A DNA stretch of 64,000 nt from Streptomyces durocortorensis (GTDB lineage Bacteria; Actinomycetota; Actinomycetes; Streptomycetales; Streptomycetaceae), in the NCBI RefSeq assembly GCF_031760065.1, contig NZ_CP134500.1, positions 6,076,001 to 6,140,000 on the forward strand, written 5' to 3'. Below are positions 24,760-38,895 of the stretch, one piece after another. The notes beneath the pieces were generated by a model. That model worked only from the letters and a program-made list of their open reading frames with translations, did not search any database and was not told where the DNA came from. Each line of letters begins with the position of its first letter. Position 1 is the first letter of the stretch. Made by a program: the position numbers and the translations under genes.

Positions 24760-26334
24760 TCACCCCTTCCCGGCGGCGTCGGCCTTGATCAGGTCGGCGC
24801 ACTTCTCGCCGATCATCATCGTGGTGATGCACGGATTGACCGTCGAGAGGACCGGCATGACGGACGCGTCGGCCACCCGCAGCCCCGTGACCCCCTTGAC
24901 CCGCAGCCGAGGGTCGAGGGGTGACTCCCGGTCGTCCGCCGGGCCCATCCGTACGGTCCCGGCCGGGTGGTAGACGGTGTTGTGGGTCTCACGGATGTAG
25001 TCGAGCAGCTCGGCGTCCGTGGCCGCACCCGGGCCCGGGGCCAGCTCGGCGCCCGCCCAGTCCGCCATCGGCGGCTGCCCGACGATCTCCCGCGCCAGCC
25101 GCAGCCCGTAGGTCATGACCCGTACGTCGTGCTCGTCGGTGAAGTAGCGGGGATCGACCCGGGGCTTGTCGCGGAAGTCCCGGCTCCGCAGCCGGACCGT
25201 GCCCCTGGACCGGGCGCGGGTGACGTTGGGGGTCAGACAGAACGCGTTGTCCGAGGTCGGGTAGCCGCGCCGGTAGGTGTTCATGTCGAAGGGCACCGAG
25301 CCGTAGTGGAACATCAGGTCCGGCCGGTCCAGCCCCTCCTCGGTATCCGCGAAGATGCCGATCTCCCACCACTGGGTCGAGGTGGTGGCCATGGGGCGCT
25401 TCGCCTCCCACATGATCACGCCCTCCGGGTGGTCCTGGAGGTGTGAGCCGACACCGGGGGAGTCCACCCGCACGTCCACCCCGGTGTCCCGCAGATGCCC
25501 GGCCGGGCCGATGCCGGACAGCATCAGCAGCTTCGGGGAGTCGATCGCGCCGCAGGCGACGACCACCTCGCGCCGGGCGTGCACCGCCCCGCTGTGCACG
25601 GTGTCGGGCTCCAGGTACTCCACGCCGGCGCACCGGTCGCCCTCGAACAGCAGCCGCTTCGCCTGGAGCCCCGTGCGTACGTCCAGGTTGGGCCGCTTCC
25701 CCAGCACCGGATGCAGATACGAGACCGAGGCGGAGGAGCGGGTGCCGTCCTCCCGGGCGTTGATCTGGAACCAGTGCGCACCCCGGATCACCGTGCTGCC
25801 CGTGTTGAAGGGGACGGTGGGGATGCCCGCCGCCGCACAGGCCTCCAGCAGGGCCGCCCCGCACGGGTCGCGGGGCGGCACGGTGCGGATGGTGACGGGG
25901 CCGGAGCGCCCGTGGTGGTCGCCGGGCGCGTCGTTCGTCTCCAGCCGTTGGTAGAGGGGGAAGCAGTCCGCCGCGCTCCACCCCGTACAGCCCAGCGCGC
26001 CCCACTCGTCGAGGTCCTCGGCCGGGGCCCAGAAGGCGATGCACGAGTTGTGCGAGGAACAGCCGCCGAGCACCTTGGCACGGGCGTGCCGCATGAAGCT
26101 GTTGCCGTTCTCCTGCGGCTCGACCGGGTAGTCCCAGTCGTAACCCGACTCCAGCAGCGCCATCCACCGCTCCAGCCGCAGGACGCTGTCGTCCCCGACG
26201 TCGGATGGCCCCGCCTCCAGGACGCAGACGGTGACGGCGGGGTCCTCGGTGAGCCGGGCCGCGACGACGGCTCCGGCCGTACCGCCGCCGACCACGACGT
26301 AGTCGTACGTGGGCACAGACTTCTCTTCGGGCAT
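24760..26334 (-). CDS. betA: GMC-family FAD oxidoreductase (choline dehydrogenase-like)
   Basis: A 524-residue flavoenzyme of the glucose-methanol-choline family. It has the FAD-binding VVGGGTAGAVVAARL at about 12-26, ARAKVLGGCSSHNSCIAFWA, the second GMC signature GAIDSPKLLMLSGIGP, and catalytic His in NTVYHPAGTVRMG with Asn in STVNPCITTMMIG. ATG 26334 follows GGAG; a longer upstream frame has no family similarity. With betaine-aldehyde dehydrogenase 376 bp upstream on the same strand, choline to glycine betaine is the likely pathway. GMC specificity is hard to read, so the substrate is inferred from context. Confidence 0.82.
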   Translation of the reverse strand: MPEEKSVPTYDYVVVGGGTAGAVVAARLTEDPAVTVCVLEAGPSDVGDDSVLRLERWMALLESGYDWDYPVEPQENGNSFMRHARAKVLGGCSSHNSCIAFWAPAEDLDEWGALGCTGWSAADCFPLYQRLETNDAPGDHHGRSGPVTIRTVPPRDPCGAALLEACAAAGIPTVPFNTGSTVIRGAHWFQINAREDGTRSSASVSYLHPVLGKRPNLDVRTGLQAKRLLFEGDRCAGVEYLEPDTVHSGAVHARREVVVACGAIDSPKLLMLSGIGPAGHLRDTGVDVRVDSPGVGSHLQDHPEGVIMWEAKRPMATTSTQWWEIGIFADTEEGLDRPDLMFHYGSVPFDMNTYRRGYPTSDNAFCLTPNVTRARSRGTVRLRSRDFRDKPRVDPRYFTDEHDVRVMTYGLRLAREIVGQPPMADWAGAELAPGPGAATDAELLDYIRETHNTVYHPAGTVRMGPADDRESPLDPRLRVKGVTGLRVADASVMPVLSTVNPCITTMMIGEKCADLIKADAAGKG

Positions 26335-26710
26335 CGCGTCTCCAGGATTCAGAGGGTCGGCGGGGGAGCGGCGGGCGGCTCCGCCTCGAAGCGGTGCTCG
26401 GCGAGCACCCGTGCGGTGCCGCTGGGCGGACCAGCGGTGGGCGAAGCCGCCGAACGCGACGACCCCGTTGAACAGAAACACCGCACCGCGGCTATCCGTA
26501 CCGCGGACCCGGCGCGCTTCGGACCTCGGCGCGCGGCCAGGCCCGGTTGAGGGACATCGCCGTGCCCCACAGCACCGCGAGCCGGTCCACCGGCGGCCCC
26601 CACCGCCCCGGCGGGAACGCGGGCGGACCGCCGTCCCGCGCCATGGCGGACACCGGCCGGATTCCGGCGGCCCGCACAGCCAGGACGCAGCCCGGTGACC
26701 TCGGTGCCGT
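26335..26710. other. 376-bp gap without a convincing gene
   Basis: Open frames run through it because of high GC, but none has a ribosome site or recognisable motifs. I see no strong hairpin. It may carry the promoter of the GMC gene. Confidence 0.3.
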
Positions 26711-28180
26711 TCACTCGAACCATCGCTGGGGAACCGCCGCGACATTGCGCCAGATGTGCTTGGCCTCCTGGTACTCGGCGAGCCCGGCGGGCCCCAGTTC
26801 CCGGCCGAAACCGGACTGCTTCATGCCGCCCCACTCCGCCTGCGGTACGTAGGGGTGGAAGTCGTTGATCCACACGGTGCCCGCCCGCAGCCGGGACGCC
26901 ACCCGGTGGGCGCGCTCGCCGTCCCGCGTCCAAACAGCCCCCGCCAGCCCGTACACGGTGTCGTTGGCCAGCCGCAGAGCCTCGTCCTCGTCCCGGAACC
27001 GCTCCACGGTGAGCACCGGCCCGAACGACTCGTCCCGCACCACGGACATCCCGGCCGTGCACTCGTCCAGCACGGTCGGCGGGTAGTAGAAGCCGTTCGC
27101 CAACGCCGGATCGTCGGGCCGCGCACCCCCGCAGCGCAGCACCGCGCCCTCGGCCACACCTTCCGCCACATACGCCTCGACCTTGTCGCGGTGCTCGGCG
27201 GAGATCAGCGGACCGCTGCGGGCCTCTTCGTCGAAGGGCCCGCCGAGCCTGATCCGCCCGGCCCGCGCCACCAGCTCGTCCACGAACCGGTCGTGCAGCT
27301 CGTCCTGCACCAGGAGCCGGGCCCCGGCGGAACAGACCTGGCCGGAGTGCAGGAACACCGCCATCAGCGCGTAGTCGACGGCGGTGTCGAAGTCGGCGTC
27401 GGCGAAGACGATGTTGGGGTTCTTGCCGCCCAGCTCCAGGGCCACCTTCTTCACGGTGGGCGCGGCGGCCGCCATGATGCTCCGCCCGGTCGCGAGCCCC
27501 CCGGTGAACGACACCATGTCCACCCGGGGGTCCTCGGTGAGCGGCGCGCCCACCACGCCCCCCGCCCCGAGCAACAGATTCGCGACCCCGTCCGGCAGCC
27601 CGGCCTCGGCCAGCAGCCCCATGAGCAGAACGGCGGTGTGCGGGGTCAGCTCGCTCGGTTTCAGCACGAACGTGTTACCGGCCCCGAGCGCCGGAGCGAC
27701 CTTCCAGGCGGTCTGGAGCAGCGGATAGTTCCACGGGGTGATGAGCGCGCACACCCCGACGGGTTCGTGCACGATCCGGCTGTCGACGTCCGCGACCCCG
27801 GTCTCCACGACCCGGCCCCCGTCCCCGGCCGCGACGAGGTTGCCGAAGTACCGGAAGCAGTTCGCGATGTCGTCCATGTCGTACGCGCTTTCGGCCAGCC
27901 GCTTCCCGGTGTCCAGCGACTCGGCCCGCGCGAAGACGTCCTTGTCCCGCTCCAGCAGCTCCGCGACCCGCAGCAGCAGCCGCCCCCGCTCGCCGGCCGG
28001 CGTCCCCGGCCAGGGCCCGTCGTCGAACGCCCGCCGGGCCGCGCGAACGGCCGCGTCGGCGTCCCGCGCCCCGCCCTCGTCCACGACGGCCACCAGACTC
28101 CCGTCGGCGGGACAGCGGATCTCCCGCGTCCGCCCGTCGAGGGCAGCGGTCCACTGCCCTTCGATGAACAGCTCCGGCAT
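26711..28180 (-). CDS. betB: Betaine-aldehyde dehydrogenase family protein
   Basis: NAD(P)-dependent aldehyde dehydrogenase of 489 residues that would oxidise betaine aldehyde to glycine betaine, an osmoprotectant. The motifs are ITPWNYPLLQTAWKVAPALG, the cofactor-binding SFTGGLATGRSI, catalytic Glu in KVALELGGKNPNIV, and catalytic Cys in SGQVCSAGARLL. ATG 28180 has GGAGGAG upstream; the longer frame to 28324 is not needed. The paired GMC oxidoreductase downstream supports the call, but other aldehydes are possible. Confidence 0.85.
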   Translation of the reverse strand: MPELFIEGQWTAALDGRTREIRCPADGSLVAVVDEGGARDADAAVRAARRAFDDGPWPGTPAGERGRLLLRVAELLERDKDVFARAESLDTGKRLAESAYDMDDIANCFRYFGNLVAAGDGGRVVETGVADVDSRIVHEPVGVCALITPWNYPLLQTAWKVAPALGAGNTFVLKPSELTPHTAVLLMGLLAEAGLPDGVANLLLGAGGVVGAPLTEDPRVDMVSFTGGLATGRSIMAAAAPTVKKVALELGGKNPNIVFADADFDTAVDYALMAVFLHSGQVCSAGARLLVQDELHDRFVDELVARAGRIRLGGPFDEEARSGPLISAEHRDKVEAYVAEGVAEGAVLRCGGARPDDPALANGFYYPPTVLDECTAGMSVVRDESFGPVLTVERFRDEDEALRLANDTVYGLAGAVWTRDGERAHRVASRLRAGTVWINDFHPYVPQAEWGGMKQSGFGRELGPAGLAEYQEAKHIWRNVAAVPQRWFE

Positions 28181-28480
28181 GGGCTCCTCCAAGTGCGGCT
28201 GGACCGGTCGCCCGGCCGTACGCCGTCCCTGCGGCATCCCGGTGGCGATCCATGACCGACGGTAAGCGCGGCGGCCCGGGCGCGCAGCACGAGCGCGGCC
28301 GAACCGAGGAACCCGCCCCGGCACCCAGCCCCCCCCCCGGGCGGGACTCAGGGCTCCTTCGCGTACGTCACGATCGAGCCGACCGTGACGTACGAGGCGG
28401 GGACACCGGTCGGACTACGGAGGTGGCGTCGGCGGTCCGGGGCGTTGTGGCCCCCACCCCTCCGGACCCGGCCTCGCTGC
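28181..28480. other. 300-bp gap with an 11-bp inverted repeat
   Basis: Noncoding region between the end of the polysaccharide operon (28481) and the aldehyde dehydrogenase start. It contains CGTACGTCACG / CGTGACGTACG at 28362-28372 and 28384-28394 (perfect arms, 11-base spacer). This may terminate the long operon or serve as an operator for the dehydrogenase gene. A run of C near 28331 is also present. Confidence 0.45.
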
Positions 28481-29308
28481 TCAGCAGGCCCTGCGCCAGG
28501 TTCCCAGTTCCCACTTCTTCCGCATGGAGGAGAGGCCCAGCCTGCGGGACTCGGGGCAGAAGCGGTCGGTCGGCTCGGTGTACTCGACATGGAAGACAGC
28601 CTTGCCCGCCTCGATGAACGGTGTGAGCCTCGCGCACTCGCCGTACTGCGCGCACTGTTCGTTGACCGCGAAGTCGAAGGCGTCCACCAGCTGCGGGATC
28701 TGGGAGAGGTCATTCTTCAGGCCCACAGCCAGGCCGCGTTCGTGGGCGATGCGAGCGATCATGCGGTTGTAGCGCAGCTGGTCCTGCGCGGTGAGCGGGA
28801 AGCCCGTGTCCTCGGCGTACCCCTCCACGAGGTCGGGCTCCACCGCGTCGAATCCCTTCTTCCGGCACATGTCGAACCGCCGCTCCATGATCGGCCGAAG
28901 CAGGGAGATCCGCCGGATGTCGAGCCAGCGCTCACCGTGCCAGCCGTTCGGCCCGCCCAGCACCGAGCGGGGGAACGCGTCCTTGTCGGGCCGGTAGTCC
29001 TCCCAGGCGCCCACGTTGATGTAGCAGATCACCTTGCGGCCGGCGCGGTGGAGCCGGGCGACGTCCTCGGCGTCGTTCTCGAAGCCGTCGATGTCATAGA
29101 CCGGCACGTCGGCAGCCGAGGCGTCGACCTTGCCGTCGAGCTGCCACTGCCAGGCCAGCCCCGGACGAGGCTGCCACCGGCTCTTGCCCGGCCCGCCCGA
29201 CGCAGTGTCCCGGCTGCCGCCCGTACCGGAACAACCGGACAGCAGGGTGGTCACCGCGACCGTCAGCACAGCCAGCAGGGTGGCCCACGGCCGGGCTCCG
29301 GGTTTCAC
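28481..29308 (-). CDS. GH114-like endo-alpha-1,4-galactosaminidase lipoprotein (Ega3-like)
   Basis: A 275-residue exported lipoprotein; the lipobox LLSGC lies at about 21-25. The TIM-barrel domain shows WQWQLDGKVD, VPVYDIDGFEND, KVICYINVGAWEDYRPD, the catalytic-type GFDAVEPDLVEGY, and FDFAVNEQCAQYGEC. These match the GH114 family, which includes fungal Ega3, a hydrolase of alpha-1,4-galactosamine polymers. GTG 29308 overlaps the previous stop as GTGA. As the last gene of the operon, it probably trims or processes the polymer outside the membrane. Confidence 0.85.
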   Translation of the reverse strand: MKPGARPWATLLAVLTVAVTTLLSGCSGTGGSRDTASGGPGKSRWQPRPGLAWQWQLDGKVDASAADVPVYDIDGFENDAEDVARLHRAGRKVICYINVGAWEDYRPDKDAFPRSVLGGPNGWHGERWLDIRRISLLRPIMERRFDMCRKKGFDAVEPDLVEGYAEDTGFPLTAQDQLRYNRMIARIAHERGLAVGLKNDLSQIPQLVDAFDFAVNEQCAQYGECARLTPFIEAGKAVFHVEYTEPTDRFCPESRRLGLSSMRKKWELGTWRRAC

Positions 29309-29967
29309 CGCCCCGCTCCGGACAGTACCGGTGTCAGCCGGGCCCACGGGTTGGGCGGCTTCCCGGTCACCGGGCCCGACACCGCGGCGCCACGCTCGTG
29401 GGCGGTGCGCACGGCCAGCGGGGCCAGCGCCTCGGGCACGCCGTACACCAGGTGACAGAAGCGGTCGGGCGGACAGCGCGTCGTCCAGTCGGGTCTGCTG
29501 AACGCCGACACATAGGTGGACCAGGGACCCTCGAACGTGACGAGGAGATCGGCGATCCTGGCGTAGCCGGGAGCAGGGTGCACGCCCGGGTTGAGGACCA
29601 CGGGCGACGCGCCCTGCCGACGCAGCGCGCGTACCAGCTTCCGGTAGGCGGACAGCGCGTCCCCGGCGGCGCTCACCCGGTCCAGGAAACAGCCGTCGGT
29701 GGCGTACCACTCCCGGTGCCGGGCGGCATCGGCGGTGACATCGACGGCAGGCCGGGTGCCGTAGTCGGTGTCCACATAGCCGAGCACGCGGGCGCCCGCT
29801 CCGCGCAGCGCGCCCGCCGCGGAGACGAAGGCGGGATCGGCCGCGCCGCCCGGCCCGTCCGCGGGATTGAGCACGACCGCGTAGGTACGGTCTGCCGCTT
29901 CGATGAGCCGGTGCCAGGCGGCTGGGTCCACAGCCGGGTGGACGTACAGCGGGATCAGAAGGCTCAC
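29305..29967 (-). CDS. Spherulin-4 family hydrolase (GH135/Sph3-like)
   Basis: A 220-residue protein of the spherulin-4 family, whose fungal member Sph3 cleaves galactosaminogalactan. It starts VSLLIPLYVHPAVDPAAW (strand 1 of a barrel) and has VLGYVDTDYGTRP, WYATDGCFLDRVS and LLVTFEGPWSTYV. In the family the DGxFFDE segment and a later FEG supply acidic residues; here the segment reads DGCFLDR, so the expected second acidic residue is Arg. No signal peptide is visible, which is odd for an exported hydrolase. GTG 29967 overlaps the previous stop. Confidence 0.78.
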   Translation of the reverse strand: MSLLIPLYVHPAVDPAAWHRLIEAADRTYAVVLNPADGPGGAADPAFVSAAGALRGAGARVLGYVDTDYGTRPAVDVTADAARHREWYATDGCFLDRVSAAGDALSAYRKLVRALRRQGASPVVLNPGVHPAPGYARIADLLVTFEGPWSTYVSAFSRPDWTTRCPPDRFCHLVYGVPEALAPLAVRTAHERGAAVSGPVTGKPPNPWARLTPVLSGAGR

Positions 29968-30890
29968 GATGACGGTTCGCCTTCCTCGTGCGGGGCCGGG
30001 GGGTGGGCACCGGCGGACCACATTGCGGTCAGGGACTCCCGGAGCACATACGAGGGACGCCAGCCAAGGACTGTCCCGGCGGCAGAGATGTCGGAACACT
30101 GCCAGGACACCTGATCCGAACGGGCGGAGCCGGCGCCCTGTTCCTCGATGCGTCCGCCGAAGCCCGCGATCTCCGCGAGGGTACGCACCAGGTCGCGCAC
30201 CGGTACGGCGTCGCCGCCGCCGATGTTGAGCACGCGCGGCAAGGGCCCAGGCGCGGTCACCGCCTGCTCCACCGCCCGCGCCACGTCTCGTGCGTCGACG
30301 AAGTCGCGGTACGCCGACAGGTCCCCGAGGCGGAGCACCGCGTCCGTGTCCGAACCCGCCTCGCGCAGGAGCCGGGTGACCCGGCCGGGCAGTCCGCCGG
30401 GTGGCGCCCCGGGCCCCACCGGGTTACCGACCCGGAGGACGAGTGCGTCCAGAGCAGAGGTCGAGACGGTGGCCGTGCCGGCCAGTTTCGTGGCCCCGTA
30501 GGCGCTGAGCGGGCGGGTGGCCGCAGACTCCGCCGTCGGGACCCTGCCGGTGCCCGGGCCGTACTCGGCGGCCGAACCGAGGTGGACCAGCCGGGCCGAG
30601 GGGCAGGCCAGAACCATTGCCTCGCACAGGACGGCGGGCCCCCGGGCATTGGCCTCCGCCAGCGTCACCGGGTTCCCGCCGGTCGCCCCGGCGCAGTTGA
30701 CCACGGCGTCCGGCGCCGCCGACGCCAGGGTCTTCGCGAGCCGGTCGGGGGAGTCGGTGGCGAGGTCGATGGGAACGTCGGCGGCGGGGGACCGCCCGCC
30801 GGCGAGGACCCGCGCGCCCTTGAGAGCACCGAGCCGCTCGGCGACGTGGGCCCCCAGGTAACCGGTGGAGCCGAGGACGAGAACGCGCAT
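29964..30890 (-). CDS. NAD(P)-dependent epimerase/reductase acting on a nucleotide sugar
   Basis: Extended short-chain dehydrogenase of 308 residues with RVLVLGSTGYLGAHVAERLG (GxxGxxG), VHLGSAAEYGP (catalytic Ser) and LSAYGATKLAGTA (YxxxK). It sits 5 bp downstream of a sugar nucleotidyltransferase and a LegB-like 4,6-dehydratase, so a 4-ketoreductase or epimerase finishing an NDP-6-deoxyhexose is the best inference. The GTGA overlap links it to the Sph3-like gene. The exact sugar cannot be deduced. Confidence 0.8.
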   Translation of the reverse strand: MRVLVLGSTGYLGAHVAERLGALKGARVLAGGRSPAADVPIDLATDSPDRLAKTLASAAPDAVVNCAGATGGNPVTLAEANARGPAVLCEAMVLACPSARLVHLGSAAEYGPGTGRVPTAESAATRPLSAYGATKLAGTATVSTSALDALVLRVGNPVGPGAPPGGLPGRVTRLLREAGSDTDAVLRLGDLSAYRDFVDARDVARAVEQAVTAPGPLPRVLNIGGGDAVPVRDLVRTLAEIAGFGGRIEEQGAGSARSDQVSWQCSDISAAGTVLGWRPSYVLRESLTAMWSAGAHPPAPHEEGEPSS

Positions 30891-30895
30891 ACTGC

Positions 30896-31609
30896 TCAGG
30901 CCCCCTTGAGCAGCAGGGACTTGCGGCTGGTGAACTCAGCGTTGGCCCGGTCGTAGTCGTCGGGACGGCCGATGTCCAGCCAGTAGCCGTCGAAGTCGTA
31001 GGCGAGCGGCGGGTTGCCGGAACCCAGCAGGTCCAGCACCAACTCGTCGAAGCCCAGCGGCAGCCCGGCGGTGTACCCGTCGAGCGTGGCCCGGGTCAAC
31101 CCGTACACCCCCATGGAAACGCGGTAGTCCAGGCTCGGCTTCTCCGTGAAGCCGACGACCTTGCTCGCGTCGGTGGTCAGCACACCGAAGTCGATGCGCA
31201 CCTGGCGCGCGTACGTGGCAATGGTCAGAGGCGCTCCGGAGCTCTGGTGGCTGTGGAGGACGTCGGCGTAGTCGAGGTCGGTGAGGATGTCCCCGTTCAT
31301 CACCAGGAAGTGCTCCGGAAGCCGTTCACGCATCGTCAGGAGCGGCCCCATGGTCCCCAGCGGGGATTCCTCGGTGGAGTAGTCGACTCGCAGGCCCCAC
31401 TGGGAGCCGTCGCCGACGTAGGCCCGGATGATCTCGCCGAGATGGCCGATGGCGATGGTGCAGCCGGTGAAGCCGGCCGAGGCGAGCTGGCGCAGGACGA
31501 TTTCGAGGATGGCGTGCTGGTCTCCGATGGGCACCAGCGGCTTGGGCAGGGTCGTGGTGTAGGGCCGCAGCCGGACACCCTTGCCACCGGCCATGATCAC
31601 TGCGTACAT
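30896..31609 (-). CDS. Sugar-1-phosphate nucleotidyltransferase
   Basis: A 237-residue GT-A-like nucleotidyltransferase. The signature AVIMAGGKGVRLRPYTTTLPKPL binds the NTP and pyrophosphate. FLVMNGDILTDLDY holds a metal-binding Asp, and VGFTEKPSLDYRVSMGVY and WLDIGRPDDYDRA are typical of RfbA/RmlA/GlmU-N-like and guanylyl-transferring enzymes. Start ATG 31609 has AAGGGAAG upstream. It should activate the sugar used by the adjacent dehydratase; whether UDP, GDP or dTDP is the carrier is not readable. Confidence 0.85.
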   Translation of the reverse strand: MYAVIMAGGKGVRLRPYTTTLPKPLVPIGDQHAILEIVLRQLASAGFTGCTIAIGHLGEIIRAYVGDGSQWGLRVDYSTEESPLGTMGPLLTMRERLPEHFLVMNGDILTDLDYADVLHSHQSSGAPLTIATYARQVRIDFGVLTTDASKVVGFTEKPSLDYRVSMGVYGLTRATLDGYTAGLPLGFDELVLDLLGSGNPPLAYDFDGYWLDIGRPDDYDRANAEFTSRKSLLLKGA

Positions 31610-31641
31610 GGTCTTCCCTTTGCTCGAAGTGCCGGGTGCGG

Positions 31642-32643
31642 TCAGATGTTGTAGATGCCGGTCTTGTAGCGGGCGAGGTTGCCCGGCTCGCGGAAGAACT
31701 CCACCGTCTGCGCGAGGCCCTCCTCCAGGCTGTGCGCCGGGCTCCAGCCGGTCGCCGCGCGCAGTCGCCCGGCATCCGCGACCAGTCGCATGACCTCGGA
31801 GTTCGCGGGCCGCAGCCGCTGCGTGTCCTCGCGGACGTCGAGCGCGGTGTCCATCACCTTGCCGATGAGGGCGACCAGGTCGCCGACGGAGATCTCGCCG
31901 CCCGTACCGGCGTTGAAAGTGCGGCCCACGACCCGCTCGGCGGGCGCGGAGCCCACCGCCAGGAACGCCTGCGCGGTGTCCTTGACGAAGGTGAAGTCCC
32001 GGGTGGGGCGCAGGTCGCCGAGGGTGATGGTCCGCTCCCCGGCCGCTACCTGGCCGATGACGGTAGGGATCACGGCCCGCATGGACTGCCGCGGCCCGAA
32101 GGTGTTGAACGGCCGCAGCGTCACCACCGGGGTGTCGAAGCTGGCGTGATAGCTGTCGGCCAGCCGGTCCCCGCCCGCCTTCGAAGCCGCATAGGGGGAC
32201 TGGGTGTTGACGGGGTGGTCCTCGGTGATCGGCACGGTCTGCGCGGTGCCGTAGGTCTCGCTTGTAGAGGTGTGCACCAGCCGCGGTGTGCCCGCGGCCC
32301 GTACCGCCTCCAGCACGTTCAGTGTGCCGGTGACGTTGGTGTCCACGTAGCTGTGGGGTGCCCGGTAGGAGTAGGGGATGGCGATGAGCGCGGCCAGGTG
32401 GTAGACGCTGTCGGCCCCTTCGACGAGATGGCGGACCGAACCCGGGTCCCGGACGTCACCGAGGACGATCTCGACCTGGTCCAGGACGGCGGGGGGGAGG
32501 GTTTCGAGCCAGCCGTACGAGGAGAAGGAGTTGTACTGCGCCATGGCCCTCACCCGGTGCCCGGCGGCGACGAGCGCCTCGGTGAGGTGGGAACCGATGA
32601 AGCCCTCGGCTCCGGTGACGGCGGCGAGCGATGGGGCGTTCAA
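31642..32643 (-). CDS. LegB-like NDP-sugar 4,6-dehydratase
   Basis: A 333-residue NAD-dependent dehydratase. Motifs: AAVTGAEGFIGSHLTEALV, the branch-specific YNSFSSYGWLETLP found in LegB-type GDP-HexNAc dehydratases, VHTSTSETYGTAQ and SPYAASKAGGDRLA. It would form a 4-keto-6-deoxy nucleotide sugar. The start is TTG 32643, preceded by GGAAGG; no better start fits, so initiation may be deliberately weak. It sits between the nucleotidyltransferase (32 bp away) and the membrane protein (69 bp away). Confidence 0.82.
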   Translation of the reverse strand: MNAPSLAAVTGAEGFIGSHLTEALVAAGHRVRAMAQYNSFSSYGWLETLPPAVLDQVEIVLGDVRDPGSVRHLVEGADSVYHLAALIAIPYSYRAPHSYVDTNVTGTLNVLEAVRAAGTPRLVHTSTSETYGTAQTVPITEDHPVNTQSPYAASKAGGDRLADSYHASFDTPVVTLRPFNTFGPRQSMRAVIPTVIGQVAAGERTITLGDLRPTRDFTFVKDTAQAFLAVGSAPAERVVGRTFNAGTGGEISVGDLVALIGKVMDTALDVREDTQRLRPANSEVMRLVADAGRLRAATGWSPAHSLEEGLAQTVEFFREPGNLARYKTGIYNI

Positions 32644-32660
32644 GGTGGTTTCCTTCCGGT

Positions 32661-32688
32661 GGTCGGTGGTCGGTGGTCGGTGGTCGGC
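32661..32688. repeat. Four tandem 7-bp repeats before the TTG-started dehydratase
   Basis: Units GGTCGGT x3 and GGTCGGC in direct tandem, with related partial copies on both sides (about 32654-32704). They fill the short gap between the membrane-protein stop and the dehydratase start. Copy-number slippage here could alter expression of the downstream half of the operon. Confidence 0.75.
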
Positions 32689-32712
32689 TGGTAGTCGGTC
32701 GGTGGAGTCCCG

Positions 32713-34119
32713 TCAGCCGTGTGCGGTGGGTCGGCCCAGCCGCCGTAGGGTCACGGCTGTGAGACAGAGCACGGCAGCAGCGCAGCTCAGCGGCAGCGCC
32801 GCGGTGCCCGGCGGGGCGCCGGTCAGCATCCCCGTGCCGGAGAACGCCGCCGCGGTCAGACCCACGGCGGCCGGCGGCCAGGCGGTGCCGAACGCCTGAA
32901 GCAGCAGGGAGATCCACAGAGTTGCGGCGAGCAGCAGCAGGGTGGCGGGCTCGGCGTCCACGAGCAGCGCCGCCGGTAGGAGAGGGCCGAGGTACACCAG
33001 CAGGCAGCCGGCGAGAACGGCTGCGGAGCGGGCCCGGAACCCGCCGAGCGTCCTCGTGGACCGCAGTGCCGCAACGGACAGTCCGCGGTAGCGGTAGAGC
33101 AGCCACTCGGCCGGCCCCATGCTCAGAGTCAGCACGATCACGGCCCAGGGATGGTCCCGGCCCGCCAGGAACACGAGTGATCCGGCGGCCAGCCCGAACA
33201 GGCCGTACGGCAGGGACGGCCACAGCCCCGGACGCGCGGTGCCGGGCGCGGTCGGGACCGCGCGGGTGGCGCGCAACGCCCAGACGGCCGCGGCGACAGC
33301 ACCGAGGAGTGACAGCAGCGGCAGCCCGGCGCGGAGCACGTTCCCGGGTTCCCACCACAGCAGCGACGTCCCGCAGGCGGTGACCGGCACGAGGACCGCC
33401 AGCAGTAGCCGTTCGCGGCCCAGCACGAGCAGCACACCGGCCGCCGCGAGGTATGCCGACTGGGCCGTGACGGCCAGGGCCGTCACGGCCGACCCCGAGA
33501 GAGCGGCACCGGCGGTGACGGCCGTGGCAGCCCCCAGCGGTGCCCCCTTCGCCAGGGTGCGGCCCGCCTCCGGCCGCCCGGCCGCCAGGCGCAGGTAGGC
33601 CCGGTGGCCCAGTGCCTGGTTCCAGGCCCAGGAGATGAGCCCGGCCACCACCAGTGCCCGCACCGCGCCGTCAGGAGGCAACAGCCGCCCGGCGAGTGCG
33701 TACGCGAGGCCGGGGAGCGCGAACAGCAGCCCTCGCAAGGCGCAGCGCAGATGGTCAGGTCGCCAAGGGTCGGTGGGGCGGGGCGGCTCGGGGAACGTCC
33801 GCGGTACGCGCCGGTACAACGCCGTCGCCAGCGAGAACAGGTCGGTGTGCCCGTACTTCTCCCGGATCACGTCACCGGTGAGGCCCTCGGATTCCAGTAG
33901 CGCGGCGACCTCATAGGGGTGGACCGCGGGCGCGATACGTTCGGCCAGTGCGGCGGCCAGTCCGTCCACCGCGTCGGCTCGTGCCCCGTGGCCGGGAAGG
34001 ACCGGGCCAGGCGGGCAGGGGCCGGCGAGGCGCAGGGCGAGGGTGCGGTCGTCGGCGAGGCGCAGTGCCAGCGTGTCCTGCTCCGCGCCGCCCGGTTCCA
34101 GCGACATGGGTCCACTCAT
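32713..34119 (-). CDS. Polytopic membrane protein of the PelF-linked operon
   Basis: A 468-residue protein. The first about 135 residues look cytosolic and include two near-repeats (TLALRLADDRTLALRLA) and a helical stretch ending LFSLATALYRRVPRTF. About 11-12 hydrophobic helices follow (e.g. GAVRALVVAGLISWAW, LLLAVLVPVTACGTSLLWW, LLLLAATLWISLLLQAF). It overlaps the PelF-like gene as ATGA. Size and position resemble PelG of Pel loci, but I do not see PelG-specific sequence, so I leave it unnamed. It is the best candidate in the operon for polymer export. Confidence 0.72.
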   Translation of the reverse strand: MSGPMSLEPGGAEQDTLALRLADDRTLALRLAGPCPPGPVLPGHGARADAVDGLAAALAERIAPAVHPYEVAALLESEGLTGDVIREKYGHTDLFSLATALYRRVPRTFPEPPRPTDPWRPDHLRCALRGLLFALPGLAYALAGRLLPPDGAVRALVVAGLISWAWNQALGHRAYLRLAAGRPEAGRTLAKGAPLGAATAVTAGAALSGSAVTALAVTAQSAYLAAAGVLLVLGRERLLLAVLVPVTACGTSLLWWEPGNVLRAGLPLLSLLGAVAAAVWALRATRAVPTAPGTARPGLWPSLPYGLFGLAAGSLVFLAGRDHPWAVIVLTLSMGPAEWLLYRYRGLSVAALRSTRTLGGFRARSAAVLAGCLLVYLGPLLPAALLVDAEPATLLLLAATLWISLLLQAFGTAWPPAAVGLTAAAFSGTGMLTGAPPGTAALPLSCAAAVLCLTAVTLRRLGRPTAHG

Positions 34120-35639
34120 CCGGCCGCGCTCCTCACCGGTGACCTGCCCACCGTCGTCGGCACGTGTTCCTCGACGGCCGAGGGCGCTCTGCGGCCGCCG
34201 GACCCGGACAGCTCCTGGTAGATGGAACGGAAGGTGTCGATGGTCTGCCGGAGGGTGAACTGCTCGATCACCCTGAGCCGGGCCCCCTCGCCCATCCTCC
34301 GGCGCCGCTCGGCGTCGGCCAGCAACTCCAGTGCCGCGGCGGCCATCGCGGCCGGATCGCGGGGCGGCACGACGAGACCGGTGTCTCCTACTGCCTCCCG
34401 GACGCCGCCCACGTCCGTGGAGACGGTCGCCCGCCCGCACGACATGGCTTCGATCAGAGTGAAGGGGAAGCCCTCGCTGATACTGGAGAGCATCACGACG
34501 TTCCCCGCCGCGTAGGCGTCCCTGATGTCCTCGACCCGGCCCTCGAAGGTGACCGCGGCGGCATGGCCCAGCTCCGCGGCCAGTGCCTCGCACCGGTCCC
34601 GGTAGGCCTCCCCGCCGCGCGGCGTGCCGCCGAACAGGCGCAGCCGCGCGGTCGGCATCCGCGCCCGTACGAGGGCGAACGCGCGGATCAGGGTCTCCAG
34701 GTCCTTGATCGGGTCGACACGGCCGGCCCAGCTGAGCACGGGGTCGGCAGGTTCCGGGCCGGCGGGCGGAAACGCGGCGGGGTCCACGCCGTTGTAGACC
34801 GTCCGGATCGAATCGGGCGCGGCACCTCCGTGCTCCTCCCAGAGCCGGTTGTAGCGGTTGCCCGGGGTGATCAGGGCGGCCCGCCGGTACGTCTCCTCCG
34901 CCAGCAGCCGGAAGAAGCCCAGTACGAGCGCCTTCACCGGCCACCGGTAGGGAGCGGTGCGGTATCCGAGGTAGCGCTCGCGCAGATACACGCCGTGCTC
35001 GGTGAGCAGCAGCGGCACACCGTGCCGTTCCAGCGCGGCGAGGCCCGGCAGGACCGCCACGCCTCCGCTGACCGCGTGCGCCACTCCCGCCTCCGGGTAC
35101 GGCGCGGCCAGCGGCCGCAGGGCGTGCTCCAGCAGCGCGGTCGCGGTCACCGCGTCCTGCAGGGTCGGCCGGGCCTCGCGCACCGCGAGCCCGGACCGGT
35201 TCCAGAGGGCCGTCAGGATGCCGATGGCCTGGTCCCCGCGCAGGAACGGACCGAGTCTGCCGTCCTCGGCGGCCCGCGCCAGCGCGTACAGAGCCGGGCC
35301 GAAGCCGTCCTCCGCGCGCGGGTCGAGCAGCGCGGTCACGAACCGCTCGTAGGACTCGGCGAGCCGCCGGCGGTGGTGCCCGCGCGGCGCCCGTCCCTCG
35401 GGGGCGGGGCCCCACATGGGGACGGAGACGATGCGGCCGACGTGGTCGGGAACGTCCCAGACGACCGGCTCGCGACCGGTTCCGGTGACGGCGATCACGT
35501 CGAACGCGATGTCCGGCATGCCGGTGACGAGTTGGTCGCACCAGACGCTCACGCCACCATGACCGTGCGGGTAGGTGCCTTCGGTGAGCAGGGTGACGCG
35601 CGACGCGCCGGAGTGTCGCGCGCCGTGGGGAAAGTACAT
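34116..35639 (-). CDS. PelF-like family 4 glycosyltransferase
   Basis: A 507-residue enzyme, the same length as Pseudomonas PelF. The N-terminus has the PelF/DUF3492 signature VTLLTEGTYPHGHGGVSVW at about 15-33. Mid-protein AVSGGVAVLPGLAAL and LLTEHGVYLRER follow. The GT-B C-domain shows VLSWAGRVDPIKDLETLI, TVYNGVDPAAF and the E-x7-E in SEGFPFTLIEAMSCGRATV. It would polymerise UDP-GalNAc/GlcNAc or a related sugar in the cytosol. ATG 35639 follows GGAG. An upstream 100-bp gap separates it from the Agd3-like gene. Fungal Gtb3 carries a similar domain. Confidence 0.88.
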   Translation of the reverse strand: MYFPHGARHSGASRVTLLTEGTYPHGHGGVSVWCDQLVTGMPDIAFDVIAVTGTGREPVVWDVPDHVGRIVSVPMWGPAPEGRAPRGHHRRRLAESYERFVTALLDPRAEDGFGPALYALARAAEDGRLGPFLRGDQAIGILTALWNRSGLAVREARPTLQDAVTATALLEHALRPLAAPYPEAGVAHAVSGGVAVLPGLAALERHGVPLLLTEHGVYLRERYLGYRTAPYRWPVKALVLGFFRLLAEETYRRAALITPGNRYNRLWEEHGGAAPDSIRTVYNGVDPAAFPPAGPEPADPVLSWAGRVDPIKDLETLIRAFALVRARMPTARLRLFGGTPRGGEAYRDRCEALAAELGHAAAVTFEGRVEDIRDAYAAGNVVMLSSISEGFPFTLIEAMSCGRATVSTDVGGVREAVGDTGLVVPPRDPAAMAAAALELLADAERRRRMGEGARLRVIEQFTLRQTIDTFRSIYQELSGSGGRRAPSAVEEHVPTTVGRSPVRSAAG

Positions 35640-35740
35640 CGATCTGCTCCACGGCCGGGAAGTGAGGTTGTCGGGCCAGGGGGGGGGCGGGCCCGCCCCG
35701 GCCGCCGCACCGGCGACCGGGACAGGGGGGCGTACGCCTG

Positions 35741-37888
35741 TCAGCGTTCCGCGCCGTGGGGGACCCGCTCCACCACGCCGGAGGGCACCTCGGTCCGGGG
35801 TGCGGAGCCCGTCGGCGCACCGGTCACGGCGGGTGCTTCGTACGGCGTGTCCGTCGCGGCCGCCGCACCCGCGGACATGGGCAGGTCCAGGGTGTAGGGC
35901 CGGCCTTCGGCCGAGCCCCAGCCGGAGACCTTGCCCGCGTAGGGAGCCCCGAAGCCGGTGCCGCCGTGCCGGGTACCGGCGGGCATGGTGGCCGCGATCG
36001 CCACACCCCCGGGCGCATGCACGGTCACACTGTCGCCGATCCGGTAGGCGGTGACCTGGCCCGCGTCGATGGCGGCCCGCCAGGCTGCCCGGCGCCGCAT
36101 CTCGACGCCGATGTCCTTCATGCGGAGATTCACCACGGGGGTGTCGGCGGTGAACAGGTCGTCGTAGGAGCCGAGCACACCGTCGAGCACCGGATAGGCG
36201 ATGCGGTCCTCGGCGAGGTTCGACTGGTGGATGAAGTGGGGCTTGGGGTCGTTGGAGAGGACGTGCCCCAGTGCGATCCGGGTCTCCAGCGGGACGATGT
36301 GCTCGGTGTAGCCGGTGGCGATGTCCAGCGGAGCGGCCAGGCAGGTGGAGGTGGCGGGGTTGTCCTCGCAGATTCCGCTGCCGCCCTGGGCGCGGCCGGT
36401 GTAGATCCAGTTGTACTCGTCGACCTGTTCGGCTTCCCGCCCGGCGTTGTAGAAGACGTTCATCGGGTAGCGGGAGATGGTCGTGGCGCTGCCGACCCGG
36501 CGCTGCACGGGGTCCCGGGAGTTGTCCGAGCCCAGCCACTCGATGCCCGTGTCGGTGAGGGCGAGCCCCAGGTTGGGGTTGTCCTCCGGCTGCTGAGGGG
36601 TGACCTTCAGACCGGAGTGCTCGCCGGTCACCAACTCCTCGCGCCTGAGAGGGAGTCCGGCCGCCACCCCCCACGCCTCGTTGGTCGCGATCTCGTCGGC
36701 GATCGCGTTCCGGCCGACCCACCGGGTGGATCCGTCCGCGTTCGTCGCGCACTTCCACGGCACCACGCCTGTGTCCTGCACACAGCCCAGGAAGGCGTGG
36801 GTGTAGGTGTGGTTGATCCAGCGGAACCGGTCGCGATCGGCCAGGAGCTTGTCGGCGAGGGCGTCCTGACCGCCGTTGTCCTCGCGGTGGTCGACGGTGC
36901 CGGAGGCGTTGTAGGCGAAGTCGAGTGTGAAGTCCCGGACGTTCTGCCAGGCGGTGGCGTGATCGACGTCGGCCGGGACCATGCGTATCGGGTTCGGAGT
37001 GCCCTCGCCCGGCTGGCAGTCCACGTCTCCGGGCGTGCAGTTGAGCACGGTGTCCCAGCGGTCGTCAGCGGCGAAGACGTCGTCGACGTGGACCGCGAAG
37101 TAGTTGCGGTCGGCGCCGAGGTGCACCCCGCCGGTCATCCACTCCACGATGCCCCTGGCCAGCAGCCGGTACTGCTGCTGGTACCGGTTGTAGACGAAGG
37201 TGACGACAAGCTGACGTCGCCCGTTGTGCCGGTACTCGCCCACCAGGGAGCCCATCGTCGGTCTGCCCGGGATGGCGGCCTGGACGTAAGGGGTGAAGTC
37301 GGCGCCCGCTGCCGGTGTCGAGAGGTAGGCGTAGGACTCGCTCACGGTGGGGGAGTTGTCCTCGAAGGGGACAGTGCCCTCCAGGTAGCCGAAGGGCCCG
37401 GCCTTGCCGGCCTGCGTCACCTCGGCGCGCACCCCGTCGATGCTGCCGGCGTAGCCCGTGCCGACCGCCGCGTTGAGCCCCACCTGTGGACGCGCGTAGG
37501 TGTAGGCGTCGACCTGTGGAATCGAGTACGCCCGCTCGTAGGCCACGATGGCCGCCATCTCGGCGGAGCCCGTCGGGAACGGGTTGTCGTTGGGCAGGAC
37601 GACGGCCTGGTACTTCGCGCGCGGTCGGCCGTCGACGGTGTCGGCGAGGAAGCCCGCGTCGATCACGGGCCGGTCGGCGTCCTCCAGTTCGACCTCGGTG
37701 TACGGCGTTCCGGCGTTCTCCAGTTCGGCGGCGATGGCGTCGGTGGACGGTCCCCCGTCGCTCACGACGAGCACGCGCAGATCGACGCGCGGTGCCGGAT
37801 CGCCCGCCTGGGCGGTGGCAGCCGGTAACCCGATCGCTGCCATCAGTGTGCCCACTATGAGCGCGGTGGTGCGAATGGTCCGCTTCAT
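35741..37888 (-). CDS. Secreted polysaccharide deacetylase, CE18/Agd3-like
   Basis: A 715-residue exported protein with a signal peptide at 1-28 (ends TAQA). An N-terminal beta-rich/CBM-like part (DLRVLVVSDGGPSTDAI) precedes a metal-dependent deacetylase barrel. The barrel has NYFAVHVDDVFAADDRW (metal Asp) and RWINHTYTHAFLGCVQD (metal His pair), and later PHFIHQSNLAED. This layout is that of fungal Agd3, which removes N-acetyl groups from galactosaminogalactan. The first gene of the minus-strand operon, it should make the polymer cationic and adhesive. Confidence 0.85.
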   Translation of the reverse strand: MKRTIRTTALIVGTLMAAIGLPAATAQAGDPAPRVDLRVLVVSDGGPSTDAIAAELENAGTPYTEVELEDADRPVIDAGFLADTVDGRPRAKYQAVVLPNDNPFPTGSAEMAAIVAYERAYSIPQVDAYTYARPQVGLNAAVGTGYAGSIDGVRAEVTQAGKAGPFGYLEGTVPFEDNSPTVSESYAYLSTPAAGADFTPYVQAAIPGRPTMGSLVGEYRHNGRRQLVVTFVYNRYQQQYRLLARGIVEWMTGGVHLGADRNYFAVHVDDVFAADDRWDTVLNCTPGDVDCQPGEGTPNPIRMVPADVDHATAWQNVRDFTLDFAYNASGTVDHREDNGGQDALADKLLADRDRFRWINHTYTHAFLGCVQDTGVVPWKCATNADGSTRWVGRNAIADEIATNEAWGVAAGLPLRREELVTGEHSGLKVTPQQPEDNPNLGLALTDTGIEWLGSDNSRDPVQRRVGSATTISRYPMNVFYNAGREAEQVDEYNWIYTGRAQGGSGICEDNPATSTCLAAPLDIATGYTEHIVPLETRIALGHVLSNDPKPHFIHQSNLAEDRIAYPVLDGVLGSYDDLFTADTPVVNLRMKDIGVEMRRRAAWRAAIDAGQVTAYRIGDSVTVHAPGGVAIAATMPAGTRHGGTGFGAPYAGKVSGWGSAEGRPYTLDLPMSAGAAAATDTPYEAPAVTGAPTGSAPRTEVPSGVVERVPHGAER

Positions 37889-38373
37889 GCGGTGGAAATC
37901 CCTCCCCAGGGCGGGGGAGGTCGGGCTCCTGTCAGAGCCTGTCCCACCCCAAGACCACGCCGCTGCCTCTCTGAGGCGCCGGTCGTCGACGCATCCGTCG
38001 AGTCACATGGTGAGGTCTGTGTGAAGTTTTTATGTGGCCGCTGGGGAACTTGACGGAAAAGCATATGTGACGATCAATCCGACAAGGTGGTCGTCTTCGG
38101 TGGCTGCGGCGCCTGCGGTCCTGGCCGTGGGAGTCACTCGCAGGCCTGTGTGCTGCTGCGGAAGGCGGGCTGCGGGCTGCGGGCCACGGGACATCGAGGG
38201 CGAGAAGCATCGGTGGACCAGACCAAGATTCCGGTCGCTGTGGAGCTGGATCAAGTCACTCCTGGGGTGGCATGCCGACGGCGGCCGGTGTGAAGCAGGG
38301 GCCGGCCGCCGCCTTCGTCCATGAGGTCCCGCTCAGCGGGGATGCGTGCCCCTCGGGGGGAGTGGGGGTGCGG
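37889..38373. other. 485-bp regulatory gap upstream of the polysaccharide operon
   Basis: Noncoding and locally less GC-rich near 38010-38080 (TTTTTATG and GGAAAAGCATATG stretches), so the operon promoter is probably here. I cannot fix -35/-10 boxes. No large inverted repeat is evident. Confidence 0.4.
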
Positions 38374-38895
38374 TCACGCGCACAGCACGCGGGTCTCGGG
38401 CGTGTAGGCCGGGCCGCCACTGTGGCTGCTGCTGTCGCTGAACTCCGCGTAGAAGTAGGAGTAGAAGCCGATGTTGCCGTTGCAGCCGGAGTCGGCGGCG
38501 ACCTGCAAGGTCAGGGTGACGGTACGACTCTGGCCGGGCGGGATGGTGGTGCCGTAGTTGCCGCCGAGGTTCGCCGGCCCGGTGCCGGAACACGGGACGG
38601 CCCCGGCGTCCGTCGCCAGGCTGCAGCCGACGAAGCTGTACTTGAGGTCGGGGCGCTGGGTGGTCAGCCAGGTCGGGTCGATGGACTGGTGGATGAACCA
38701 GATGTCGTACGTCTGATTGTTCTTGATCGTCATCGACAGGTTCACCGCACCGCCGGGCGTGGTGGTGGCGGCGTCGGTCGTGAACGACAGTTCGGCCGGG
38801 GCCGGGTCGGCGGCGCTCGCGGAGGGCGCCAGGCCGAAGAGCGCGAGGGCGATGACCGTGGCGAGACCGAGGCGTCTCGTGCGAGTGGATCTCAT
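38374..38895 (-). CDS. Small secreted protein of unknown function
   Basis: A 173-residue protein with a clear signal peptide (RLGLATVIALALFGLAPSASA). A beta-sandwich-like domain follows, rich in Thr/Ser and Gly (PGGAVNLSMTIKNNQTYDIW, IPPGQSRTVTLTLQVAAD). Four Cys lie in SFVGCSLATDAGAVPCSG, SGCNGN and the C-terminal VLCA. The Thr/Val-rich spacing resembles CARDB- or DUF11-like exported domains but is not diagnostic. It lies 485 bp upstream of the deacetylase gene on the same strand; membership in that operon is uncertain. Confidence 0.65.
   Translation of the reverse strand: MRSTRTRRLGLATVIALALFGLAPSASAADPAPAELSFTTDAATTTPGGAVNLSMTIKNNQTYDIWFIHQSIDPTWLTTQRPDLKYSFVGCSLATDAGAVPCSGTGPANLGGNYGTTIPPGQSRTVTLTLQVAADSGCNGNIGFYSYFYAEFSDSSSHSGGPAYTPETRVLCA

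Follow-up and report, generated by a model that had tools for sequence, protein, structure and literature searches.

We analysed a 64,000-nucleotide stretch (the window) comprising positions 6,076,001-6,140,000 of the 7.30 Mb single-contig genome of Streptomyces durocortorensis (contig NZ_CP134500.1), in which eight genes, all on the minus strand, fill positions 28481-37888. A preliminary description of this DNA had placed eight same-strand genes at exactly these limits, and the gene calls agreed with it. In the order of transcription, from 37888 downward, they encode a polysaccharide deacetylase, a PelF-type glycosyltransferase, a polytopic membrane protein, a LegB-like short-chain dehydrogenase/reductase (SDR), a nucleotidyltransferase (NT), a second SDR (SDR2), a spherulin-4 (GH135-type) protein and a GH114 hydrolase. 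The genes for the LegB-like SDR, NT and SDR2 are referred to below as the cassette and the remaining genes as the core; clusters with and without the cassette are called long and short, respectively. The features are as follows (aa, amino acids).

38047..38061, minus strand: conserved element CTTTTCCGTCAAGTT upstream of the deacetylase gene, long type only
35741..37888, minus strand: Agd3/CE18-type polysaccharide de-N-acetylase, 715 aa, with an apparent Sec signal peptide and a family-profile match to Agd3 (6NWZ)
34116..35639, minus strand: PelF-type GT4 glycosyltransferase, 507 aa, with the EGTYPHGHGGVSVW loop and V32 (NCBIfam PelF, Pfam DUF3492)
35544..35546, minus strand: codon of PelF V32 in the GG loop, cassette-correlated
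32713..34119, minus strand: polytopic membrane protein, 468 aa, with hydropathy segments and no family
31642..32643, minus strand: LegB-type nucleotide-sugar 4,6-dehydratase, as judged by TIGR04180 and residues, 333 aa, with T127-S-E129 and Y151xxxK155
30896..31609, minus strand: sugar-1-phosphate nucleotidyltransferase (NT), 237 aa (Pfam NTP_transferase, 134.8 bits)
29964..30890, minus strand: SDR2, Rmd/RmlD/GalE-like, 308 aa, with S106 and Y131xxxK135 (Pfam Epimerase, 126 bits)
29305..29967, minus strand: GH135 (Sph3/spherulin-4)-type hydrolase, 220 aa (Pfam Spherulin4; Sph3 alignment)
28481..29308, minus strand: GH114 endo-alpha-1,4-galactosaminidase-type lipoprotein, 275 aa, with an LSGC lipobox (Pfam; Ega3 alignment)
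28829..28831, minus strand: codon of GH114 L160, which follows the nucleophile; cassette-correlated

The intergenic distances in the order of transcription are 101, -4, 69, 32, 5, -4 and -4 bp, and the several 4-bp overlaps that had been described earlier were located at three junctions (PelF/membrane protein, SDR2/GH135 and GH135/GH114). Given this tight spacing and the overlaps, the eight genes likely form one operon.

Conservation of the locus was examined in one-genome-per-species bacterial contigs, among which 330 stretches matched the pattern and 321 were confirmed to encode relatives of the deacetylase. The best 80 of the 321 confirmed loci, all Streptomyces by title, made up a named set in which gene order was scored by tblastn. 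All eight genes were found in order in 50 of the 80 loci, one of which has an extra distant SDR upstream; in another 17, GH114 alone had no match in the sequence retrieved, which in L070 extends about 1 kb beyond GH135, and the remaining 13 agreed in order up to the end of the stretch. The same gene order is thus kept in relatives, with all 80 loci in agreement within their stretches apart from the 17 without a GH114 match, and the conservation of the locus is far beyond chance. In the named loci, LegB is 85-99% and NT 83-100% identical to the copies of the window, PelF 80-98% and the deacetylase 69-98%, so that constraint on the cassette is no weaker than on the core. The closest named relative among the loci fetched was Streptomyces sp. 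WZ.A104, the deacetylase of which is 98% identical.

The deacetylase of the window by itself scored 12.5 bits with the Pfam model Agd3_CE, below the cut-off of 27.6; the single sequence gave nothing at the curated level in Pfam or NCBIfam, and no PDB chain was matched in searches with the sequence alone or with a shallow alignment (A1). When a profile of 50 diverse relatives (A3) was compared with the PDB, Agd3 (6NWZ) was the sole significant match (E 5.7e-9; next E 0.19), and all four catalytic motifs were collinear. The CE18 motifs are the CM1 Asp-Asp pair, CM2 HxxxH, the CM3 Arg and the CM4 His (PMC7229062); aligned with Agd3, the corresponding residues of the window protein are D269/D270, H360/H364, R473 and H554, all six of which are invariant across the 50 relatives, and Phe552 occupies the position of the CM4 Met. 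Agd3_CE was matched by 31 of the 50 relatives with E values no higher than 0.01 (lowest 9.1e-7) and, with the limit at 0.1, by all 25 proteins of an initial Streptomyces set (lowest 9.2e-7). Only the family profile revealed the N-terminal CBM87 region, with A3 positions 37-281 aligning to residues 23-262 of the Agd3 chain; the CBM87_Agd3 model was matched in 16/50 relatives, with no match at E 0.01 in the window protein itself. The profile match to Agd3 and the invariance of the motif residues bear out the earlier proposal of a CE18 (Agd3-like) deacetylase. One relative of 972 aa (P0315) was found in which an Agd3-type deacetylase and a GH114 domain are joined in one chain.

Both hydrolases proposed earlier, one Ega3-like and one Sph3-like, passed the cut-offs of their family models and have the catalytic Asp and Glu. 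The GH114 protein scored 291.7 bits in Pfam (cut-off 27) and aligned with Ega3 (6OJ1) at E 2.9e-57 with both catalytic residues matched; since the nucleophile and acid/base of Ega3 are D189 and E247 (PMC12054363), D159 and E217 are the predicted counterparts in the window. Its signal sequence with the LSGC lipobox was judged by eye. The genome has a second GH114 gene elsewhere (L106), and the stretch around it held none of the other cluster genes. The GH135-type protein scored 115.8 bits with Pfam Spherulin4, the Sph3/GH135 family model (cut-off 30.2), and aligned with Sph3 (5C5G) at E 2.1e-12, the catalytic Asp and Glu being D96 and E146; R97 stands where Sph3 has a further Glu. Loss of this second Glu was considered as a marker of cluster type and dropped, the listed variants being Arg or Gln in long clusters and Gln in short ones. 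A simple hydropathy scan detected no signal peptide or hydrophobic segment in the 220 residues, and the N-termini begin at the same place in ten copies from both cluster types; the protein is possibly a cytoplasmic hydrolase.

PelF, whose gene starts with an ATG at 35639, scored 171.5 bits with the NCBIfam PelF equivalog (cut-off 100) and 204 bits with Pfam DUF3492, and its length is exactly the 507 residues given for the PelF-like transferase in the preliminary description. It was the sole transferase recognised in the operon by Pfam and NCBIfam. The membrane protein (32713-34119) matched no Pfam or NCBIfam family, and a profile of it also matched in the short cluster type; it is presumed to be the polymer translocation partner of PelF. 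No PelD-, PelE- or PelG-type protein was recognised among the eight in the Pfam and NCBIfam scans, in which no PelG alignment was compared.

The LegB-type SDR scored 452.4 bits with the LegB model TIGR04180, followed by RmlB (166) and GalE (142), and the motifs TSTSE and YAASK were present in 30/30 aligned copies. The published signature of GDP-mannose 4,6-dehydratase is [ST]SE...Yx3K (PMC8987622, Table 1), that of other retaining dehydratases has [ST]DE, and GalE has just [ST]...Yx3K, with no acid/base residues (PMC8987622); by these signatures the residues point to a dehydratase. With the galE model the protein scored 138.6 bits, far below the cut-off of 262.3, which four other genes of the genome passed; supply of UDP-N-acetylgalactosamine (UDP-GalNAc; UDP, uridine diphosphate) therefore need not come from the cassette. 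UDP-xylose synthase also has a TSE motif, and its structures matched the LegB-type SDR more weakly (best 99.5 bits) than did 6WJB, an epimerase/dehydratase (131.7 bits), or the thymidine diphosphate (TDP)-glucose dehydratase 1R66 (130.6 bits). The best NCBIfam matches of NT were man1P_GTase and MurU, all below cut-off. SDR2 has S106 and the Yx3K motif without the dehydratase acid pair, and a Gly-Arg after its second strand suggests a preference for NADPH; it is presumed to be an NADPH-dependent 4-ketoreductase. A second LegB-like SDR of the genome (L213:9008-10012), 52% identical to that of the window, adjoins a gene with a MurG-like start (by eye), and no NT or SDR2 match was found beside it.

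The cassette genes were also found in other settings. In L214, a cluster with the cassette from another actinobacterial family, a single protein combines NT and SDR2 (L214:5808-7592, minus strand; domain scores of 361 bits for NT and 242 bits for SDR2); the identity of L214 to the window is 65% for NT, 64% for LegB, 51% for GH114, 48% for PelF, 45% for SDR2, 41% for the deacetylase and 35% for GH135. In L220 a homologous NT-LegB pair, the LegB of which also has TSTSE, lies within a NeuB-NeuC-NT-LegB-LegC locus that looks like a legionaminic-acid locus; NeuC scored 301 bits, above its cut-off, and NeuB (361.5 bits; cut-off 399.65) and the LegC-family aminotransferase (391.9 bits; cut-off 420) fell below theirs. 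L223 has LegB, NT and an SDR adjacent to one another, together with GT4-like open reading frames (ORFs) and no PelF-type cluster. Given these contexts and the finding that LegB of Campylobacter jejuni dehydrates GDP-N-acetylglucosamine (GDP-GlcNAc; GDP, guanosine diphosphate) (PMC7439481), the NT-LegB product is probably a nucleoside diphosphate (NDP)-4-keto-6-deoxy-N-acetylhexosamine, with SDR2 probably acting as a reductase in the place of LegC. In Bacillus cereus, a dehydratase and an NADPH-dependent reductase together produce UDP-N-acetylquinovosamine (UDP-QuiNAc; PMC4514872).

The deacetylase was detected in at least 69 of 150 sampled Streptomyces genomes and, by profile, in at least 11 of 396 genomes of the phylum, both counts being lower bounds from a loose first-pass screen. 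When 85 neighbourhoods were scored with profiles of the eight genes, and clusters were typed by content as long (two or more cassette genes) or short (none), 28 were long, 38 short (among them L102, which is not from Streptomyces) and 19 untypable; for subsequent counts seven loci were added by tree position or deacetylase identity, L137, L149, L156 and L158 to the long type and L169, L178 and L196 to the short. No LegB-, SDR2- or NT-like ORF was found at E 1e-6 in any of the 41 fetched stretches of short loci (L102 included). The 69 deacetylase-positive genomes comprised 31 with short clusters only, 22 with long only, eight with both (three of these, G411, G472 and G488, depend on added loci), three with a long cluster and an untyped copy, and five untyped. 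One genome counted as short only (G182) also has a long cluster without a deacetylase match (L222), and a further long cluster (L211) appears to have decayed, with fragments of the deacetylase, membrane protein and GH135 genes and LegB at full score. In a joint CE18-PelF tree rooted on L101, the long (support 1.0) and short (0.85) types were separate, and the PelF tree likewise separated them (0.63 and 0.96). L101, from outside Streptomyces, has the deacetylase, PelF, GH135 and GH114 and no cassette match; a hydrophobic ORF lies between PelF and GH135 (by eye) and is not matched by the membrane-protein profile. L214 branched outside both Streptomyces groups in the L101-rooted PelF and CE18 trees.

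Cassette-correlated residues, counted by alignment column, were found in two core enzymes. The residue after the GH114 nucleophile was Leu in 17/17 long clusters (window included) and Asn in 28/29 short ones (L102 included); in the overlapping named set it was Leu in 39/39, that is, the window and the 38 that passed a length and score filter among the 50 loci with a GH114. Asn is also present in L101, in the other GH114 of the genome and in Ega3, and the two GH114 copies of L214 have Leu and Val. After GGVS, PelF has Val in 29/29 long clusters and, counting the window, in 74/74 of the named set; in the short type this residue is Thr in 40/41, the remaining copy being truncated there. Elsewhere it was Val in L214, Thr in L101, Gly in L103 and Ser in L104. 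The GG loop of GT4 enzymes is N-terminal and has a role near the donor. Because both changes are from polar to hydrophobic, one at the GH114 catalytic Asp and one in the PelF GG loop, they would fit a sugar without O6, and Asn to Leu/Val in GH114 and Thr to Val in PelF may be adaptations to such a sugar.

The long type is also marked by CTTTTCCGTCAAGTT, which was present within 3 mismatches, 157-176 nt before the start codon, in 84 of 101 distinct long-type upstream sequences and in 0/40 upstream sequences of short-type clusters; in the genome it is single copy at up to 1 mismatch. The leader that carries it occupies 37889-38075, and its GC-rich part from the element to the start codon folded slightly better than shuffled sequences (z -2.06). 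A structured RNA leader was rejected, with two-sided change in just 3 of 25 consensus pairs and almost no covariation, and the sole Rfam match in 28000-38600 lay outside the leader (22.3 bits; gathering score 37). At the other end of the operon, the GH114 gene is followed after 156 bp by a same-strand aldehyde dehydrogenase gene, which together with a GMC-type oxidoreductase gene (by eye; likewise on this strand) occupies 24760-28324; this pair, which perhaps converts choline to betaine, was taken as not part of the operon.

The interpretation starts from direct observations, namely the gene families and their catalytic residues, the conserved order, the two cluster types, the portability of the cassette and the correlated residues. 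We lean, if not strongly, toward the view that the operon encodes the synthesis, export and trimming of an extracellular Pel/galactosaminogalactan (GAG)-type polymer of alpha-linked aminosugars, for which the cassette would supply a special activated sugar, and the best reading of the product is a partly de-N-acetylated polymer composed at least partly of a 6-deoxy-N-acetylhexosamine. In this scheme, where substrates, nucleotide, C4 configuration, linkage and adhesive role are predictions, NT would activate a hexosamine-1-phosphate, probably GlcNAc-1-phosphate or glucosamine-1-phosphate, and the LegB-type enzyme would remove O6 to give a 4-keto intermediate. Reduction by SDR2 would then yield an NDP-6-deoxy-N-acetylhexosamine, either D-N-acetylfucosamine (D-FucNAc; 6-deoxy-GalNAc) or D-QuiNAc; PelF would polymerise this sugar through the membrane protein, with or without UDP-GalNAc. 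The extracellular CE18 enzyme is expected to remove some of the N-acetyl groups, which would render the polymer cationic and adhesive; trimming of the de-acetylated stretches may fall to the GH114 lipoprotein, likewise outside the cell. A cationic, partly deacetylated adhesive polymer had been predicted in the preliminary description; a partly de-N-acetylated exopolysaccharide is probably correct. An extension to the genus, which we put forward tentatively and at somewhat less than even chances, is that Streptomyces has two Pel/GAG-type matrix systems side by side, with the usual galactosamine polymer coming from the short cluster and from the long one an unreported 6-deoxy analogue, a partly de-acetylated poly-N-acetylfucosamine or -quinovosamine, with PelF and GH114 each retuned by one hydrophobic substitution.

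Several results weigh against a 6-deoxy polymer. The LegB-type SDR narrowly missed the TIGR04180 cut-off of 475, its best PDB match is an epimerase/dehydratase, and the reaction of SDR2 is not fixed by any curated NCBIfam model. With 140 bits for LegB and 48 for SDR2, the third SDR of L223 is closer to LegB. Only the long type formed a clade in the CE18 (0.99) and GH114 (0.92) trees, and only the short type in the GH135 tree (0.93). L207, a short cluster that branches basally in its clade, has the GH114 Leu, owing to which a strict filter returned no type-specific residue in GH114. The type counts come from one genus and a few outside loci, and the long Streptomyces clusters are one lineage, so that the residue correlation is thin, resting on about two lineages. 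The sugar supplied by the cassette enzymes could also be a second one and not that of the backbone.

We consider it unlikely that the product is a plain GAG/Pel-like polymer, poly-GalNAc/galactosamine with or without galactose, in which the SDRs would be 4-epimerases of UDP-GlcNAc/UDP-galactose and NT would boost the UDP-sugar supply. Characterised CE18, GH114, GH135 and PelF relatives do act on GalNAc/galactosamine polymers, and Pel is a galactosamine-GalNAc repeat (PMC9135694); the match of the LegB-type SDR to 6WJB, which we take to be the 4-epimerase PelX, also fits such a product. However, the dehydratase acid/base residues are present in every aligned copy, the galE score is far under a cut-off that other genes of the genome reach, and the sister cluster type has the same core without any cassette-like ORF in the stretches fetched. 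A mixed polymer seems rather improbable as well; here PelF, or a transferase encoded outside the operon, would add the 6-deoxy sugar to a Pel-like GalNAc backbone, either as a side group or as a minor unit in alternation. GAG itself is built of two sugars (PMC4817252), the catalytic residues of GH114 and CE18 are retained, and PelF is the sole transferase recognised in the operon; that no second one was recognised also speaks against a side group, and the changed residue at the GH114 nucleophile suggests that the backbone sugar is altered. Finally, the hydrolases and deacetylase might attack fungal galactosaminogalactan, the locus being degradative or antifungal, and an endogalactosaminidase of Streptomyces griseus was described in 1975 (cited in PMC7229062 and PMC12054363), as well as a second GH114 being encoded in the present genome without cluster genes alongside; yet PelF, the membrane protein and the activated-sugar cassette stay together in the 80 loci within their stretches, and Pfam recognised no importer or catabolic gene among the eight, which makes this explanation very improbable.

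Operons of this kind have been known since 2020 and the present one is not a first: bacterial Agd3 operons with a CE18 deacetylase, a cytoplasmic glycosyltransferase, a multi-spanning membrane protein and, in most cases, GH114 were reported by Bamford et al. (PMC7229062), some actinobacterial ones with spherulin-4 genes. The words "dehydratase", "nucleotide sugar" and "6-deoxy" do not occur in the main text of that report, which, in the parts available to us, makes no division into two Streptomyces types; in open-licence PubMed Central, the titles and abstract beginnings of the matches listed held nothing on the cassette or the two types. The fungal GAG cluster (uge3, gtb3, agd3, ega3, sph3) resembles the window in combining Agd3-, Ega3- and Sph3-type enzymes. 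It differs in that the window has PelF and a separate membrane protein rather than Gtb3, a GH135 protein without a visible signal peptide, and the LegB-type dehydratase cassette in place of the 4-epimerase Uge3, the one sugar enzyme of the GAG cluster (PMC4817252, PMC7229062). The preliminary description was right about the gene set, its families and the presence of three nucleotide-sugar enzymes and a polytopic membrane protein; its equation of the set with the fungal pathway is not supported, since there are three sugar enzymes rather than one Uge3, and the dehydratase signature and missed galE cut-off speak against a fungal-type 4-epimerase. Nor is a simple match to bacterial Pel loci supported, whose PelD-, PelE- and PelG-type proteins were not recognised among the eight. 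The Gram-positive pelDEA(DA)FG operons (PMC7112168) share with the window PelF, a deacetylase and export across a single membrane, but the window deacetylase is of the CE18 type and not PelA-DA, PelD, PelE and PelG were unrecognised, and GH114 and GH135 are present. NT and a LegB dehydratase are adjacent in cytidine monophosphate (CMP)-legionaminic acid loci (NT-LegB-LegC; L220) as they are here, whereas the window has an SDR in the place of the LegC aminotransferase, no NeuB or NeuC, and a PelF-cluster setting. The Pdeg/Preq pair for UDP-D-QuiNAc in B. cereus (PMC4514872) likewise unites a 4,6-dehydratase and a 4-reductase, to which the window adds a nucleotidyltransferase, its product here being a prediction.

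The two cluster types turn the question of what bacterial Agd3-type operons produce into a direct comparison inside one genus, where the same core occurs with or without the cassette, sometimes in the same genome. If the long type does use a 6-deoxy sugar, a Streptomyces aggregation or attachment polymer may escape GalNAc lectins and the known galactosaminidases, and the long-type GH114 would be an enzyme of new specificity against cationic matrices.

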